DNA of 64,000 nucleotides, from positions 1-64,000 of the IMG/VR virus record IMGVR_UViG_3300035703_000008. The stretch is one strand, 5' to 3'. Every line of letters starts with the position of its first letter. Within the stretch, counting starts at the first letter, position 1. This document shows positions 2 to 5,557 of this stretch, one piece after another. Made by a program: the position numbers and the translations under genes. This DNA comes from a virus. The notes below the pieces were generated by a model. That model was given only the letters and a program-made list of their open reading frames with translations, was not told the DNA's origin and did not search any database.

Positions 2-76
2 GACGGACGATATCGAATTGTCTATAACAACAACTGTGATGACCTATTGATCATGCCTCCGGGTCTTTATAAATAA
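2..76 (+). CDS. C-terminal end of an unidentified protein (partial)
   Basis: An open frame enters from the left edge and ends at TAA 74-76. The visible 24 residues end in IMPPGLYK. The start lies outside the window and nothing identifies the protein. Its last codons overlap a T4-type late promoter that probably serves the next gene. Confidence 0.45.
   Translation, partial: DGRYRIVYNNNCDDLLIMPPGLYK
68..75 (+). promoter_or_regulatory. T4-type late promoter TATAAATA
   Basis: A perfect TATAAATA octamer, the consensus read by the T4 gp55 late sigma factor, overlaps the stop codon of the upstream gene and lies 4 nt before the ATG at 80. Transcription would normally begin several bases after the box, so the first message may start at or inside the ATG at 80 and serve mainly the HAD gene downstream. 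Assignment is by motif only. Confidence 0.55.
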
Positions 77-79
77 CTG

Positions 80-271
80 ATGCGTGCTCAAGAATTCCAA
101 CGACGCGGTCTCAAGACTTATGCGGCCAAGATAAAACTCCGGCAAATCGGGTATGTCAACATCATTGACACCACTGTGCAAGCACGCACTCCTGAGATGG
201 CACGTCGACTGCTGCGCCAGCTCTACGGTGATCGCCATGTGATCGTAGGTCAACCACGAGAGCTCAAATGA
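80..271 (+). CDS. Small basic phage protein with MRAQEF N-terminus
   Basis: 63 residues, function not recognised. The N-terminus MRAQEF resembles the capsid-targeting peptide of T4 internal proteins (MKTYQEFIAE) and recurs in other genes up to position 5557. The rest is a basic segment with a short beta-rich part and an amphipathic stretch (ARTPEMARRLLRQLYGD) of a kind often seen in small phage proteins. The stop overlaps the ATG of the next gene (268) by 4 nt, so both are probably translated together. I infer a virion-packaged protein. Confidence 0.7.
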   Translation: MRAQEFQRRGLKTYAAKIKLRQIGYVNIIDTTVQARTPEMARRLLRQLYGDRHVIVGQPRELK

Positions 272-1047
272 GAGCCAGTGAATTCTCCAATTCCAAGCTG
301 GTGATCTTCGACATCGACGACACCTTGGTCAACACCGACACCCGTGTCAATGTGGTGCATGATGGCCGAGTGGTCAAACAGCTCAACAGCCACGACTTTA
401 CGCACTACAATCTCCAACCCGGTGAAGAATTTGACTTTGGTGCTTTCCGTGATGCTCGAGAATTTTTCACCAAGGCTCGACCTATACCGGGCATGATACG
501 TCAACTCAAACAAGACATCGCCACTGGCAACAAAGTCATCATGCTCACGGCACGCAGCGACTTCAATGATCGTGATGTGTTCTTGGACACATTCCGGCAA
601 TATGGCATAGACATGGATCGTGTGCATGTGTACCGTGCCGGAAATCTCGCCATCCGGGCCGCCACCGAAGAAAAGAAAAAGATCATACTCCAGCACCTTT
701 TGGGCAAACAGCACTATGACAAAGTGATCATGTATGATGACTCTGTGCCCAATCTCAATGCTTTCCTCAGTCTCCAACAAGACTACCCGTGGAGCCGGTT
801 CTATGCCTGGCATGTGGATCCCAATGGGCAGGCCTCAGAATATCACAGAACCAATGCAGGCGTCAAAGAAAACTTTGCGGATGGTAAGAAGCCTGGACGC
901 AAGGGCTTGAGTCGCAGAGTAGGTATACCCAAGAAAGCCACGCTGGGACAGTTGGAAAAGATAGCCAAGAGCAGCACAGGTGAGCGTCGCAGGATGGCAC
1001 AATGGCAACTCAACATGCGGCGTGGCAAAGCAAGAAGGAATAAATAA
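268..1047 (+). CDS. HAD-superfamily phosphatase with basic virion-type tail
   Basis: 259 residues. Residues 12-25 carry the HAD motif I (VIFDIDDTLV, nucleophile plus acid Asp), motif II lies in MLTAR, and the YDKVIMYDDS segment fits motif IV, so a magnesium-dependent phosphohydrolase is likely; the substrate is unknown. The last ~60 residues (from GRKGLSRR) are a separate, very basic module ending MRRGKARRNK, similar in style to DNA-facing phage head proteins. The N-terminus MRASEF is the capsid-targeting-like motif shared with neighbours. Together these suggest an enzyme packaged in the head, possibly injected; that part is inference. Confidence 0.75.
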   Translation: MRASEFSNSKLVIFDIDDTLVNTDTRVNVVHDGRVVKQLNSHDFTHYNLQPGEEFDFGAFRDAREFFTKARPIPGMIRQLKQDIATGNKVIMLTARSDFNDRDVFLDTFRQYGIDMDRVHVYRAGNLAIRAATEEKKKIILQHLLGKQHYDKVIMYDDSVPNLNAFLSLQQDYPWSRFYAWHVDPNGQASEYHRTNAGVKENFADGKKPGRKGLSRRVGIPKKATLGQLEKIAKSSTGERRRMAQWQLNMRRGKARRNK

Positions 1048-1107
1048 AAATGTGGATCGCGAGGCGGCAACCTCCACCCACTCTAACATGAAAGGACCAT
1101 ATCAGCT

Positions 1108-1764
1108 GTGTATTTACAAAACAAATACAGCCGTTGGTATAATAGCATTGTTGATCGAGCAAGATCAAGAACCATCACGGGATATACCGAACGACATCAC
1201 ATCATCCCTCGCAGTTTAGGCGGCGATAACAGTCCATTCAATCTTGTAAATCTCACAGCCAGAGAACACTTCGTTTGCCATCTCTTGCTTACTCGTATGA
1301 CCACAAACGAAGCCCGTAAAAAAATGGTGATGTCTGTGTTCTATCTCACAGGTCGAGGCAAAGCAGATAGACAAAATGTCATCAAACAGTCTCGTCTTTA
1401 TGAAAAACTGCGACAAGAGTTGTCACAGATAGTGAGCCAGAAGAAAAAAGGTTGCCGCCAACCACCTCGCAGCGAACTGGCTAAACAGAGATATTCTCAA
1501 TCAAAAATAGGTCGAAACAATCCCAATGCTCGTGGATACTTTATCACGCCTTGGGGCCAATATGAATCGTCGAGATTAGCAGCTAAACATTGCCCGGTGC
1601 CAATTACCGGCAACTATATCATAAGACTCTGTACCACTAACAATCATATTCCAATAAATCTTTTGAGCGTGTGCAGAAGCAAAGCATATCTTGAAGAGAA
1701 ACACATAGGAAAAACACCATTTGAGATGGGCTTTGAATTTCATCCGTATGAAGTCAGGCCGTAA
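1108..1764 (+). CDS. HNH homing endonuclease
   Basis: 218 residues starting at GTG. The segment ERHHIIPRSLGGDN is the HNH beta-beta-alpha-metal motif (HH catalytic pair, then N in NLVNLT and H in AREHFVCH), as in free-standing phage homing endonucleases. The central part (KKGCRQPPR..SQSKIGRNNPNARG) looks like NUMOD-type minor-groove DNA-binding repeats. It stands between virion genes, so it is likely a selfish insertion rather than part of their function. No ATG exists near the start in this frame, so the exact start is uncertain. Confidence 0.85.
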   Translation: MYLQNKYSRWYNSIVDRARSRTITGYTERHHIIPRSLGGDNSPFNLVNLTAREHFVCHLLLTRMTTNEARKKMVMSVFYLTGRGKADRQNVIKQSRLYEKLRQELSQIVSQKKKGCRQPPRSELAKQRYSQSKIGRNNPNARGYFITPWGQYESSRLAAKHCPVPITGNYIIRLCTTNNHIPINLLSVCRSKAYLEEKHIGKTPFEMGFEFHPYEVRP

Positions 1765-1818
1765 AAAATCCTAATTGACTAGATACTCTGGTCATAAAAA
1801 TCCCCCACTAAATACAGT

Positions 1819-2124
1819 GTGGACACAACATATATCAGAGCTGTGATAGACATCCGCTGTGAGTGGGAAGGCCTTGAGCCAGCCTATCGCATCTACGTCA
1901 ACGAAGAACTGTTCACTGAACGCACCTGGACTTGGACTGATCACTACCTCGAAGAAGTGATACAGATACAGGCCTCGCCAGGGCGCTATCAAGTAAGATT
2001 GGAACCTGTGCCACCCACCCTGGCACGATTCACTGTGGGCAATCACAGAGTGGAACACGGACCTGCACAGTGGGTCAATGATCAAACATTGGAGATATCA
2101 GCGTGCGAGCCCGAGAATTCATAA
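1819..2124 (+). CDS. Conserved phage protein of unknown function
   Basis: 101 residues with no enzymatic motif that I recognise; rich in aromatic residues and beta-strand-like (YRIYVNEELFTERTW). A CTAAATAC box, a late-promoter variant, ends only 4 nt before the GTG at 1819. If that box is used, the true start must be downstream, for example GTG 1843 (VIDIRCEW). The end overlaps the next small gene by 22 nt. Position inside the virion-type cluster suggests a structural or head-associated role. Confidence 0.6.
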   Translation: MDTTYIRAVIDIRCEWEGLEPAYRIYVNEELFTERTWTWTDHYLEEVIQIQASPGRYQVRLEPVPPTLARFTVGNHRVEHGPAQWVNDQTLEISACEPENS

Positions 2125-2264
2125 ACGAAAATGCGGGCGTGACCACCGCGGCCTCTATGGCTCCTGTGAGCCAGAGCCTGGGCACACCGTTGACACGAGT
2201 ATCAACAAAGCCTGCTAAATATGCTAATAGCTTAACGAAACGGAAACCCAATGCTGGTAGATGA
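2103..2264 (+). CDS. 53-residue protein with capsid-targeting-like N-terminus
   Basis: GTG start at 2103, stop TGA 2262-2264. The N-terminus VRAREFINE-NAG matches the pattern of T4 capsid-targeting peptides: a short basic start, an EF pair, then a hydrophobic-x-E protease site followed by a small residue or N. The remainder is rich in Ser, Thr, Lys and Pro (basic C-terminus KRKPNAGR). It overlaps the preceding gene and, by 14 nt, the Dps-like gene. Likely a small internal head protein; this is an inference from the N-terminus. Confidence 0.6.
   Translation: MRAREFINENAGVTTAASMAPVSQSLGTPLTRVSTKPAKYANSLTKRKPNAGR
2215..2222 (+). promoter_or_regulatory. Possible late promoter CTAAATAT
   Basis: CTAAATA is the late-promoter variant reported for T4-like cyanophages. 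It lies about 28 nt before the ATG of the Dps-like gene, inside the preceding small ORF. Motif match only; AT-rich octamers of this type can occur by chance. Confidence 0.35.
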
Positions 2265-2694
2265 CCTCAAAACACTGTTGGCCACGCAATATGCCTTCGT
2301 GATCAAAGCACAGTTCTTCCACTGGAACGTGGAAGGTCCTGACTTTGCACAACTGCATCGATTCTTTGGCAAGATCTACGAAGAAGTCTACGAAAACAGC
2401 ATAGACCAGACCGCAGAATTCATACGCATACTCGACGACTACACTCCCGGCAGTTTTGAGAGATTCGGCGAGCTCAGCCTCATCACCGGCCAGATCAAGG
2501 TACCGCGTGCTCGTCTCATGATCCAGGAACTCTTGGCCGACACGCAGACCTTGATCGATCAGCTCAACACCACTTTTGACGCAGCCGAATCCGAAGATCA
2601 GCAAGGCATCATGGACTTCCTGGCCAGTCGCATCGACGCCATGGGCAAGCATGGTTGGATGCTGAGGAGTTTCTTGAAAGAGGAGCGAGCATGA
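2251..2694 (+). CDS. Dps-like ferritin (DNA protection during starvation)
   Basis: 147 residues, the usual Dps length. FFHWNVEGPDF..LH..F in the first 40 residues followed by YEEVYENSIDQTAEFIR is the Dps/ferritin-like four-helix signature carrying the inter-subunit ferroxidase His, Asp and Glu ligands. Dps oligomers oxidise Fe2+ with peroxide and bind DNA, so this could protect phage DNA in the cell or the capsid. It sits among head-type genes and overlaps the next ORF by 4 nt. Dps genes in phages are uncommon but known. AhpC/AhpF in the same window also deal with peroxide. Confidence 0.8.
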   Translation: MLVDDLKTLLATQYAFVIKAQFFHWNVEGPDFAQLHRFFGKIYEEVYENSIDQTAEFIRILDDYTPGSFERFGELSLITGQIKVPRARLMIQELLADTQTLIDQLNTTFDAAESEDQQGIMDFLASRIDAMGKHGWMLRSFLKEERA

Positions 2695-3185
2695 GCCACG
2701 ATCTCCGCGACATACTGGGTCGTTTATCGGCCATCGAAGAAGGCCTGGACGCTGATCAGCGCCGGGTGAAACAACTGCCAGCCCTGTTCCGGCCTCGGAA
2801 AACATCACCGGTCCTGGACGGACCCTACGGCAAACGCGATGCCATGGACGGATACCTCGTGGGCGAAGACATGGTCAGTGCCGAGAAAAAGCGTCTCAGT
2901 GACTATCTACATGACGTGGCCCAGGCCATCGAAAAAGACGCAGATCTCGTCAACACCGACTCGCGTGGCCAGGACACCGTGAAGTCAGTGAAGACCATAC
3001 GCACCGACGACGGACATGAGATCAAGATCGTGGGCAACGAAGACGACGGATTCCGTGTGAGCATACGGGACCAGCAAGGTCACACACGATTCAATAACCT
3101 CGACGAGGCCGTGATGGCCTGCGAGATGTACTGCGCCCGCCGCCGCCAGCGCCGATCCAGCCAAGATTACATAGAAGAAGCCTGA
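2691..3185 (+). CDS. Conserved T4-like phage head-region protein
   Basis: 164 residues from ATG 2691, which overlaps the Dps stop (ATGA). The N-terminal half has a pattern familiar from cyanophage-type proteins: LGRLSAIEEGL, then QLPALFRP and a GPYGKRDAMDGYLVG stretch. The C-terminal half is a compact alpha/beta segment with a basic end (CARRRQRRSSQ). No enzyme motif is visible. By neighbourhood and composition it is probably a virion or packaging-associated protein. Confidence 0.7.
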   Translation: MSHDLRDILGRLSAIEEGLDADQRRVKQLPALFRPRKTSPVLDGPYGKRDAMDGYLVGEDMVSAEKKRLSDYLHDVAQAIEKDADLVNTDSRGQDTVKSVKTIRTDDGHEIKIVGNEDDGFRVSIRDQQGHTRFNNLDEAVMACEMYCARRRQRRSSQDYIEEA

Positions 3186-3187
3186 CC

Positions 3188-4789
3188 ATGAACCTACGAG
3201 ATCTATTTGAGAACAACGAACCCACTGCCATGGCCCAGGCTGTGACACGGAGGATACTGAGCACACGCAGTGACCTCTTGAGCCGCTACGGAGTCGAAGC
3301 TGTGAGCCAGGCCATTGATGATGTCACCCAAGGTGACGACTGGGAAGAGATCGGCAGCTCAGACGTGAGTACCTATGTGCGATATGTGGAAGATTACCTG
3401 CGCGATCACCATGGCAGCCGTGAGGAGATGGCGGATCGTCGACCATTCGCCGAACAAGGTGTCTCGGAAATGGATTCGCAAGGTTATCGAGGTCATCGCG
3501 GTGATGAAGATCCAGGCAAAGGTCCAGAAAAAGTAGTCAAGCCAGCCAAGACAAAAGATGTTGCCAAAGACGCAGAAAAAGAATTAACCAAAGCAATGGA
3601 TAAGGCACACAAGAAAGGTGTGGCGGAAGGCACTGAACAAGTTTATAAAGTTCTAGCAGTAGACAAGAGCAATGCATTGTCTGATAAAGTTATGCTAACT
3701 GTAAAAGCAGGTTCTATAGCAGAAGTGTTTGAACGATTGGCCATGAGTGATTGGTATCCATTGTCAATCAACGGTGCGGAAGTCATCGACGGCCGGCGTC
3801 TAAAGCCGGGTGTGGCGGAAGGCTCCGAACAAGTGTATAAAGTCATAGCCGTTGACAAAAACAATGCCCTAGGTAAAAAAGTCAAACTGAATGTCAAGGC
3901 CAGTTCCGTAGAAGAAGTCTTTGAACGATTGGCAATGAGTGATTGGTATCCTTTGGAAATTAATGGTGTTGAAGTCATTGCTGGCAAGCGTCTAAAGCAA
4001 GGTGTGGCGGAAAACCAACGCCGTTTCAACAATGTCAACGACGATGATCTCTATGCTGTAGATCCCCGAACCAAAGAGATCATAGCCCACCTTGGCAATC
4101 CCTACAACAATAGAACGGCTGTATTGATCAAAAAACGCCAGCACGAACAGCAGGGCCACGAGGTCATGTCAGGTATGCGAGCTAAATTCTACAGAGACGT
4201 CGATGAGCAAGGTGTGGCGGAAGGCACTGAAGGCAACTGGTATGTTCGTGTTAAAGGTAAAGTTCTCAAAGATAGCAAATTTAATGCTATCCCTTTTGCA
4301 TCACAAGATGAAGCAAGAAATCATGCATTGACACTTGCTAGAAAGAAAAATATACCATTATCTCAAGTAAAACTTACAAGAAGTTGGATGGATGCACCTG
4401 AGTCAGAGGTTTCGGAAGGTGAATCACAAACTGTAGAAGTTGTGATCAGTGATGGCACACAGCGTCAGCGTCGCAGAGTTCGTGTTAGTCCCAATACACG
4501 CAATGTCGAAGCTGCAGTGTTAAAGTACTATGCCAAAGTAGGACTGCCAGTTGTATCTATCAATGGCCGACCTGTGAGGGCTGCCATGGCCGAGGGCGAT
4601 GGCAGCACATGTCCTGAGTGCGGTGGTCCCATATTCAAGAGCCGGTTCATGGCCGAAGAGCAGGACGCCTGCTATCGCAAAGTCAAAAGCAGATACAAGG
4701 TGTGGCCATCGGCCTATGCGTCAGGCGCTCTGGTGCAGTGCCGCAAGAAAGGTGCTGCCAACTGGGGCACAGGAGGTAAGAAAAAATGA
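3188..4789 (+). CDS. Modular virion protein with GVAE-G linkers (possible polyprotein)
   Basis: 533 residues starting MNLRDLFE-N. Short linkers of the form (V/M)-(A/S)-E-(G/N) divide it: GVAEG at residues 144, 208 and 342, GVAEN at 272, VSEG at 408 and MAEG at 467. They resemble T4 prohead protease sites (hydrophobic-x-E followed by a small residue). Modules 144-207 and 208-271 are near-identical tandem copies (FERLAMSDWYP in both). The last ~60 residues hold a CPECGG zinc-ribbon start and a CYRKVKSRYKVWPSAYASG module common in T4-like phages. I infer a head protein cut into separate small domains during maturation. No enzymatic function is recognised. Confidence 0.75.
   Translation: MNLRDLFENNEPTAMAQAVTRRILSTRSDLLSRYGVEAVSQAIDDVTQGDDWEEIGSSDVSTYVRYVEDYLRDHHGSREEMADRRPFAEQGVSEMDSQGYRGHRGDEDPGKGPEKVVKPAKTKDVAKDAEKELTKAMDKAHKKGVAEGTEQVYKVLAVDKSNALSDKVMLTVKAGSIAEVFERLAMSDWYPLSINGAEVIDGRRLKPGVAEGSEQVYKVIAVDKNNALGKKVKLNVKASSVEEVFERLAMSDWYPLEINGVEVIAGKRLKQGVAENQRRFNNVNDDDLYAVDPRTKEIIAHLGNPYNNRTAVLIKKRQHEQQGHEVMSGMRAKFYRDVDEQGVAEGTEGNWYVRVKGKVLKDSKFNAIPFASQDEARNHALTLARKKNIPLSQVKLTRSWMDAPESEVSEGESQTVEVVISDGTQRQRRRVRVSPNTRNVEAAVLKYYAKVGLPVVSINGRPVRAAMAEGDGSTCPECGGPIFKSRFMAEEQDACYRKVKSRYKVWPSAYASGALVQCRKKGAANWGTGGKKK
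3617..4000 (+). repeat. Tandem 192-bp in-frame repeat (two units)
   Basis: Units 3617-3808 and 3809-4000 each encode GVAE plus a ~60-residue domain containing EQVYKV, FERLAMSDWYP and ING-EVI. Both protein and DNA are strongly similar, pointing to a fairly recent duplication inside the coding sequence. Each unit starts at a putative protease linker. Confidence 0.85.
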
Positions 4790-5181
4790 GAGACATCATT
4801 GATCTACTGGAGGCCATCGAACAGGGTTGCCCTCCAGCCACGCAGAACATCGATCTCAACTTGAAGAATCGCCAGCGGGCCATTGACGAATATCATTATG
4901 GTCCGCTCAATCCTGCCCGGCCCAGCCTGGAGTATTGGCAAGAACTGGCAGATCAATGGAATACATCTGTAGAAGAAGCACAGAGTGCCAGATGTAGAAA
5001 CTGTGCCGCTTTCGACATCACCCAAAAGACCTTGGATTGTATCGACCGAGGCATAGGTGGCGACGACGATTGGGATATCATCAAAGCCGGCAAACTGGGC
5101 TATTGTAGATTCCTCAAGTTCAAATGCAATGCTTTGCGTTCGTGCTCGGCGTGGGTGGAAGGCGGACCTGTTCGAGACTGA
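4786..5181 (+). CDS. Cysteine-rich conserved phage protein
   Basis: 131 residues, overlapping the previous stop by 4 nt. The start MRDIIDLLEA again fits a hydrophobic-x-E cleavage pattern. The central part (NIDLNLKNRQRAIDEYHYGP) is followed by six or more conserved-looking cysteines: RCRNCAAF, then C in TLDC, GYC, KFKC and RSC. This suggests a metal-binding fold, either zinc or an iron-sulfur centre of the HiPIP type; the sequence does not decide. Function unknown; likely packaged in the virion. Confidence 0.7.
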   Translation: MRDIIDLLEAIEQGCPPATQNIDLNLKNRQRAIDEYHYGPLNPARPSLEYWQELADQWNTSVEEAQSARCRNCAAFDITQKTLDCIDRGIGGDDDWDIIKAGKLGYCRFLKFKCNALRSCSAWVEGGPVRD

Positions 5182-5182
5182 T

Positions 5183-5557
5183 ATGAGAGCCCAAGAATTC
5201 GTCACCGAAAAGTGGAGCACCAAGTATAAACGCTCTATCAATTGCTCTGACCCTCGGGGATTCAGCCAGCGTGCCCATTGTCAGGGTCGTAAGAAAAACA
5301 ATGAAGATCAAGACCTGGCGGAAGATCTACGCAAGTGGTTCCGAGAAAAGTGGGTTCGTTTTGGCCCTGATGGAAAGATTCGCGGGGATTGTGCTCGCGG
5401 ATCCGACGCTGAGGGCAAGCCCAAGTGCCTGCCACAATCAAAGGCACATGCCCTGGGCAAGAAAGGTCGTGCGAGTGCGGCAGCCCGTAAGCGCAGACAA
5501 GATCCCAATGCCGACCGCCGTGGCGCTGCACGGAATGTTCCCACGAAAAAATCATGA
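5183..5557 (+). CDS. Basic conserved phage protein with MRAQEFVTE N-terminus
   Basis: 124 residues from ATG 5183. The N-terminus MRAQEFVTE-K is the closest match in the window to the T4 capsid-targeting peptide. The body is strongly basic with conserved-looking blocks: YKRSINCSDPRGFSQRAHC, GDCARGSDAEGKPKCLPQS and a Lys/Arg-rich tail (RKRRQDPNADRR). Paired Cys residues could bind metal. Similar modules occur in T4-like phages without assigned function. A DNA-binding internal head protein is the best guess. Confidence 0.75.
   Translation: MRAQEFVTEKWSTKYKRSINCSDPRGFSQRAHCQGRKKNNEDQDLAEDLRKWFREKWVRFGPDGKIRGDCARGSDAEGKPKCLPQSKAHALGKKGRASAAARKRRQDPNADRRGAARNVPTKKS

Follow-up and report, generated by a model that had tools for sequence, protein, structure and literature searches.

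Predicted capsid-targeting-like N-terminal tags, closed by hydrophobic-x-glutamate sites, on unrelated proteins of a virus genome and related viral contigs

The closest described system is that of phage T4, in which the small, basic and non-homologous internal proteins IPI, IPII and IPIII and the protein Alt share an N-terminal capsid-targeting sequence (CTS) of about 10 residues. The first 10 residues of IPIII are enough to have it packaged, residues 4 and 7 mattering for targeting and residues 8 and 10 for cutting, and the T4 protease gp21 cleaves after L/I-x-E (PMC9026906). IPII and IPIII begin MKTYQEFIAE/A (a slash marks a cut or candidate cut here and below), which bears out what a preliminary description of the present DNA had said of the T4 internal proteins. 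Phage polyvalent proteins combine several domains in one long chain, for which packaging, delivery and subsequent cutting into units are predicted (Iyer et al. 2017, PMC5512222). A gp21-like protease also processes the ejected head proteins of phiKZ and SPN3US, likewise behind a Glu, but at the motif S/A-x-E or A-x-E, and they mostly carry long propeptides (20-254 aa) rather than short tags or strings. The N-terminal residues of DarB of phage P1 are enough for capsid entry, the first 30 aa being sufficient for a reporter; this region is longer, and no tag comparable to MRAxEF is described for it (PMC9024508). Within the open-licence papers, we found no report of an MRAxEF tag, cyanophages included, or of module chains cut by a prohead protease.

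Our analysis suggests that the MRAxEF peptides described below act as T4-like capsid-targeting sequences, and that the prohead protease would cut both these tags and polyproteins after hydrophobic-x-Glu (phi-x-E). We put the probability of this reading at about 0.83. The tag forms covered are MRAxEF[ILV]xE and a sister form, M[KRN][IVL]xx[IL][LF]E. The likeness to the T4 CTS lies in the EF[ILV]xE register (MKTYQEFIAE vs MRAREFINE) and in the phi-x-E site, which in T4 is cut by an S77 protease. The tag here differs in being one residue shorter, with MRA in place of MKTY, and in having the sister form MKIxEILE; its cargo is far larger and more varied, some tagged proteins have no cut site, and internal linkers carry the same cut site.

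The record, 208,932 bp long, belongs to a large T4-like phage; its first 64 kb form the window, and genes outside the window were called with a simple script. Four genes in the window start with MRAxEF exactly as the preliminary description had reported, namely those at 80 (MRAQEFQRR), 268 (MRASEFSNS), 2103 (MRAREFINE/N, with GTG as the start codon) and 5183 (MRAQEFVTE/K), and no further such start occurs among the ORFs of the 64-kb window. The second start type that it gave, at 3188 (MNLRDLFE/N) and 4786 (MRDIIDLLE/A), is also as reported. Its claim of a hydrophobic-x-E cut site on the tags holds for genes 2103, 5183, 3188 and 4786, but fails for genes 80 and 268, in which the MRAxEF tag is not followed by a phi-x-E site. 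The genome-wide search that it had proposed found two additional MRAxEF genes in the 208,932-bp record, at 184831 (MRASEFIDE) and 198233 (MRAREFLAE), while the reversed pattern gave 0 matches there. The sole match of the 184831 protein among isolated phages is in Salicola phage SCTP-2, and the 198233 protein has no relative among isolated phages in the collection searched. Other tag-like starts in this genome are found at 194529 (MKKLAQYLAE/S), 195139 (...MNLLE/G) and 197034 (MKSLRDYITE/A).

Gene 80 (80-271, + strand) encodes 63 aa beginning with MRAQEF, with no phi-x-E behind the tag, and its relative in locus L252 starts MRAHEFCLKE/G. Gene 2103 (2103-2264, + strand; 53 aa) joins its tag to a small Gly/Ser/Thr-rich module that resembles, by eye, the ASxGxTSSGSVATV modules found behind MRAQEFIKE, MKIRDILE and MRIREILE. 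A CPPATQ module follows the tag of gene 4786 (4786-5181, + strand; 131 aa); in locus L218 this module is internal, behind VAE/D. Gene 5183 (5183-5557, + strand; 124 aa) has a SINC module and a SLRDWF-like module behind its tag, and its AF2 model was poor (pLDDT 54) and not used.

The MRAxEF pattern is not a product of chance. We scanned viral contigs at the DNA level for MRAxEF[ILVM]xE, with a permuted pattern as control. Matches were found in at least 120 stretches, many of which hold two or more and up to 4 per locus, compared with 53 stretches in total, one match each, for the control. Among the matches listed, 140 of 141 stand at the start of an ORF of 35 codons or more, and a stop lies no more than 20 codons upstream of 120 of 141; the corresponding numbers for the 53 control matches are 32 and 13. 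The 1.02 Mb of loci that were fetched only for linker sequence contain 34 MRAxEF ORFs; each of seven patterns with these residues in another order gave 0 in this 1.02 Mb, and the count in control loci was also 0.

The residues expected of a cut site are conserved across the family. Among the 227 tagged ORFs of the 147 loci listed, 209 have Glu at position 9 and 213 have I, V or L at position 7. The scan pattern itself favours a hydrophobic residue at 7 and Glu at 9, but Glu also occupies position 9 in 40/49 tagged ORFs of motif loci not picked by the scan pattern and in 27/34 from the independently fetched loci. M1, R2, A3, E5 and F6 are invariant and E9 is present in 90% or more. Without the tag, the 227 ORFs fall into at least 44 sequence clusters, so that a short N-terminal peptide is common to non-homologous proteins, as for a T4-type CTS, and a cut site closes this peptide family-wide, though not in genes 80 and 268 of the window. 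The codons for the R, A, E and F of the tag vary, and therefore the constraint acts on the peptide and not on the DNA. Recent gene duplication as the source of the shared N-termini was rejected, since the cargoes do not align and the codons vary. The sequences give strong support to a capsid-targeting-like peptide family with a predicted cut at hydrophobic-x-Glu.

The commonest group of tagged cargoes consists of 105 ORFs in one cluster, mostly of ~120-135 aa and often in tandem, including L008:14233-14601 (genome 198233); several members have YRFG or LNRxMMA motifs.

Gene 3188 (3188-4789, + strand; 533 aa) is a predicted polyprotein, in which MNLRDLFE/N is followed by modules with phi-x-E linkers that the preliminary description did not mention. 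The linker GVAE/G, with the DNA ggtgtggcggaaggc, occurs at 3617-3631, 3809-3823 and 4211-4225, and GVAE/N, with the DNA ggtgtggcggaa, at 4001-4012 (all + strand). Candidate sites EVSE/G and AMAE/G lie at 4406-4420 and 4583-4597 (+ strand), and the segment 4649-4786 (+ strand) has a site FMAE/E with a WPSAYASG module common to cyanophage T4-GC119 proteins. The phi-x-E sites include residues 8, 147, 211, 275, 345, 410, 469 and 490, and the units between the main sites are mostly of 59-70 aa. Two 64-aa repeats (EQVYKV...SDWYPL...) at 3617-4012 suggest that the segment between linkers was recently duplicated in frame.

Such strings are not confined to this gene. Linker ORFs contain as many as six exact copies of GVAEG, and an N-terminal phi-x-E is present in 30 of 49 linker ORFs compared with 113 of 563 others (Fisher p = 3e-9). 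The multi-module chains resemble polyvalent proteins in layout and would, like them, be delivered on infection, and one tagged cargo matches Kinase-PolyVal. Polyvalent proteins are, however, thought to cut themselves through their own peptidase domain; no peptidase domain was found in gene 3188 or in the ten linker ORFs searched, and their phi-x-E linkers would fit the prohead protease. The cyanophage T4-GC119 proteins, encoded between gp16 and gp17 and annotated as 'structural protein' in S-E7, likewise combine SLRDWF, WPSAYASG, CWKGY and DUF6321-like modules in one chain. They differ in their linkers (DLNE/G, VVAE/K, VTNE) and in an N-terminus without MRAxEF, and several of the modules are separate tagged genes here. 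Counterpart modules in this genome (G000) are in 195139 and 197034, between the gp16-like and large terminase genes.

Genes 3188 and 5183 share modules with chains elsewhere, and we therefore collected modules by their own sequence and examined the residues upstream. The SINC module of gene 5183 has Glu at one register in 62/62 distinct upstream sequences and I, L, V, M or F at P3 in 90%, the remaining upstream columns being near random; where a Met lies 7-12 aa ahead of the SINC module, P1 is Glu and P3 is hydrophobic in 22/22 cases. The NFADG module at the C-terminus of gene 268 is preceded by Glu in 47/47 and by phi-x-E in 39/47 cases, compared with ~2% at other registers. The DUF6321, CWKGY, CPPATQ and ATSSGSVATV modules show the same phi-x-E tendency in smaller samples. 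The pattern is looser for the cyanophage-type WPSAYASG modules, with phi-x-E no more than 9 aa upstream in 50/66 vs 22/66 further upstream.

One and the same module can form its own gene behind MRAxEF[ILV]xE, behind MKIxEILE, MRIREILE or MKLSEIIIE, or behind MKTFKQFQE, and the same modules are also found within long ORFs behind linkers such as GVAE, LDE and LNE. The phi-x-E register is the same behind tags and linkers, so tag and linker supply one site, and a module can thus be a stand-alone tagged gene or a bead of a string. The T4-type MKTFKQFQE/EW, close to the MKTFKEF start of T4 IPI, stands ahead of the SINC module in loci L361 and L382, so that one cargo occurs with either tag (MKTFKQFQE/EWTNKYKK vs MRATEFITE/KWSKKYKD). 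Since modules follow either tag class as well as MKTFKQF, the MRAxEF class and the class of genes 3188 and 4786 are linked, and both are tied to T4.

An alternative hypothesis could be that the conservation of the 5' ends and linkers mainly reflects DNA joints for recombination, used to swap gene bodies, with the peptide having no targeting role. The linker DNA itself gives this idea some weight. GVAE is coded GGT GTG GCG GAA in 51 of 88 cases from loci not selected for the linker, whereas codon usage predicts ~0.5%, and the conservation across relatives spans only ~16 bp. The 12-mer GGTGTGGCGGAA has four copies in this genome, every one in gene 3188, and the linker Ala is GCG in all four although GCG makes up 7% of the Ala codons of this genome. 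The simplest reading of this conserved linker DNA would be a shared joint for recombination. The codons of MRAxEF vary freely, however, and several unrelated modules are preceded by phi-x-E at a constant register despite differing surrounding DNA and residues. Recombination accounts for the spread of the linkers but not for the retained Glu and hydrophobic residue, and we consider it unlikely as a replacement for the targeting reading. The two may be combined: we speculate, at slightly less than even odds, that T4-like phages of natural waters put together variable mixtures of virion proteins in the form of polyprotein strings, in which the 16-bp cassette CAAGGTGTGGCGGAAG (Q-G-V-A-E) would serve both as the recombination joint and as the prohead-protease site that frees the modules.

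Returning to capsid targeting, the preliminary description had suggested looking for the prohead protease elsewhere in the genome, and we found a T4-type S77 prohead protease gene, that is, one of the gp21 type, at 160596-161222 (best match E 3e-26). It is followed by candidate scaffold and major-capsid genes; the capsid protein (MCP) is 65.9% identical to those of T4-like jumbo phages and has a candidate site YLKE/NASPG. S77 is present in 6 of the 6 searched contigs of at least 150 kb from the MRAxEF scan, among the matches listed, and was not found in three linker contigs or in five shorter MRAxEF contigs (80-102 kb), which are fragments or chance linker matches. By position, the tagged genes lie among late structural genes, and PHROG 13484 (virion structural protein) is matched by the linker ORFs L254, L265 and L287 and by the 204317 protein of this genome. 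The large terminase ORF at genome 202737-204227 stops early (~421 aa) and may be interrupted.

The tagged cargoes include ADP-ribosyltransferase, GNAT, GH19, LysM, M23, SLT, polyvalent-type kinase, ASCH and HAD domains, and also Tat signals. As GH19, M23, SLT and LysM are muralytic domains, as found in tails, and several of the genes are near those for tail sheath and tube, MRAxEF could instead direct proteins to another part of the virion, such as the tail or baseplate, or to another complex, the prohead-protease cut at phi-x-E being incidental. We regard this as improbable, more so than the recombination hypothesis, because S77 works inside proheads and cut sites would be pointless on proteins never entering them, and because the T4-type MKTFKQF replaces MRAxEF on the same cargo.

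Export would also be compatible with the Tat-like signals and muralytic domains of some cargoes. A Tat-like signal stands directly behind the tag in L023:2992-3609, L062:3861-4493 and L129:413-1294 (e.g. MRAVEFIAE/IDRRGFLGALGAGAMAAAG). Cleavage of the tag from such proteins would expose the export signal, as if for leaving the host cytoplasm after injection.

Gene 268 (268-1047, + strand; 259 aa) consists of MRASEF, a HAD phosphatase domain that is polynucleotide-kinase-phosphatase-like, and a basic NFADG module. It matches PHROG 415 (E 3e-15) and Pfam HAD families. Its AF2 model is modest (pLDDT 66, with residues 1-8 and 192-216 below 50) and gave weak matches to the PDB (best E 4e-3), Pnkp and the T4 Pnkp phosphatase among them. 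The preliminary description had counted this phosphatase in the tagged set; the tag is there, but no cut site lies behind it, and the same holds for a relative in locus L267, with MRAHEF and the same HAD domain. In a relative in L277 the HAD domain is internal. Glu directly precedes NFADG in all three proteins (VKE, VAE and MRE in gene 268, L267 and L277, respectively), and in gene 268 this gives a candidate cut site V-K-E/N-F-A at the boundary of the two domains (859-876, + strand; Glu201 codon 868-870). With no cut site behind its tag and a phi-x-E before NFADG, the HAD protein may therefore retain the tag while its basic C-terminal module is cut off. The idea that the Glu and the hydrophobic residue are simply the first residues of the module fold, as their strict conservation with the module might imply, is very improbable, since several unrelated modules share this two-position pattern and nothing else, the pattern equals the gp21 rule, and the site V-K-E201/N of gene 268 falls in the 192-216 stretch with pLDDT below 50. 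The L267 relative (L267:7711-8874) has an extra domain, ADP-ribosyltransferase-like by eye, that follows the HAD domain and precedes the NFADG module.

We favour the capsid-targeting reading because of the many unrelated cargoes, the conserved cut-site residues, the encoded S77 protease and the cargo shared with the MKTFKQF peptide. This core of the preliminary description stood, while the tags of genes 80 and 268, which lack a cut site, and the promoter boxes (below) did not support it. By analogy with T4, the N-terminal peptide would bind the scaffolding core of the prohead and carry the protein in. The S77 protease would then cut after phi-x-E, removing the tag and dividing multi-module proteins such as that of gene 3188 into units of ~40-70 aa; the sites and the protease gene are present in the genome, and we infer the specificity of this S77 protease. 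The freed modules, many of which are small and basic, would stay with the DNA and enter the host, as T4 IPI-III and Alt suggest. Most likely, judging from the gene sequences, the proteins enter the prohead, are split into modules and remain with the DNA, and entry of the modules into the host, after the example of IPI and Alt, is likely.

If this is right, a simple text rule would flag, among the nameless genes of large T4-like water phages, those for head-borne proteins together with their cut positions. The flagged proteins would probably be the first to reach the host, which makes the ADP-ribosyltransferase, acetyltransferases, kinase, phosphatases and small basic proteins candidates for early anti-defence or take-over factors. 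The peptide would also provide a second tag with which phage heads could be loaded with proteins, and the strings a case of phage evolution through shuffled, protease-separated modules.

Late promoters were rejected as specific evidence for the tagged set. A T4-type late promoter box, TATAAATA, lies at 68-75 (+ strand), its end 4 nt before the ATG at 80, and TAAATA boxes occur in the window at 1041, 1809 and 2216. The boxes cited in the preliminary description thus exist, but across related loci TAAATA is found ahead of 15% of MRAxEF genes vs 18% of other ORFs, i.e. with no enrichment. Where TAAATA is near a tagged gene (loci L014-L133 and L187-L299; 68-75 in the window), it usually ends 4-8 nt before the ATG, a spacing that would give nearly leaderless late mRNAs.

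Two other genes lie among the tagged ones. An HNH-type homing endonuclease gene (window 1108-1764; PHROG 655, E 2e-41) is located between tagged genes 268 and 2103, and a similar ORF is found at genome 193230-193973, just ahead of the gp16-like gene. A ferritin-like (Dps-type) protein with no obvious tag (window 2251-2694; PHROG 3636, 'DNA binding protein') is encoded in the tagged cluster and is possibly a DNA-bound virion protein.
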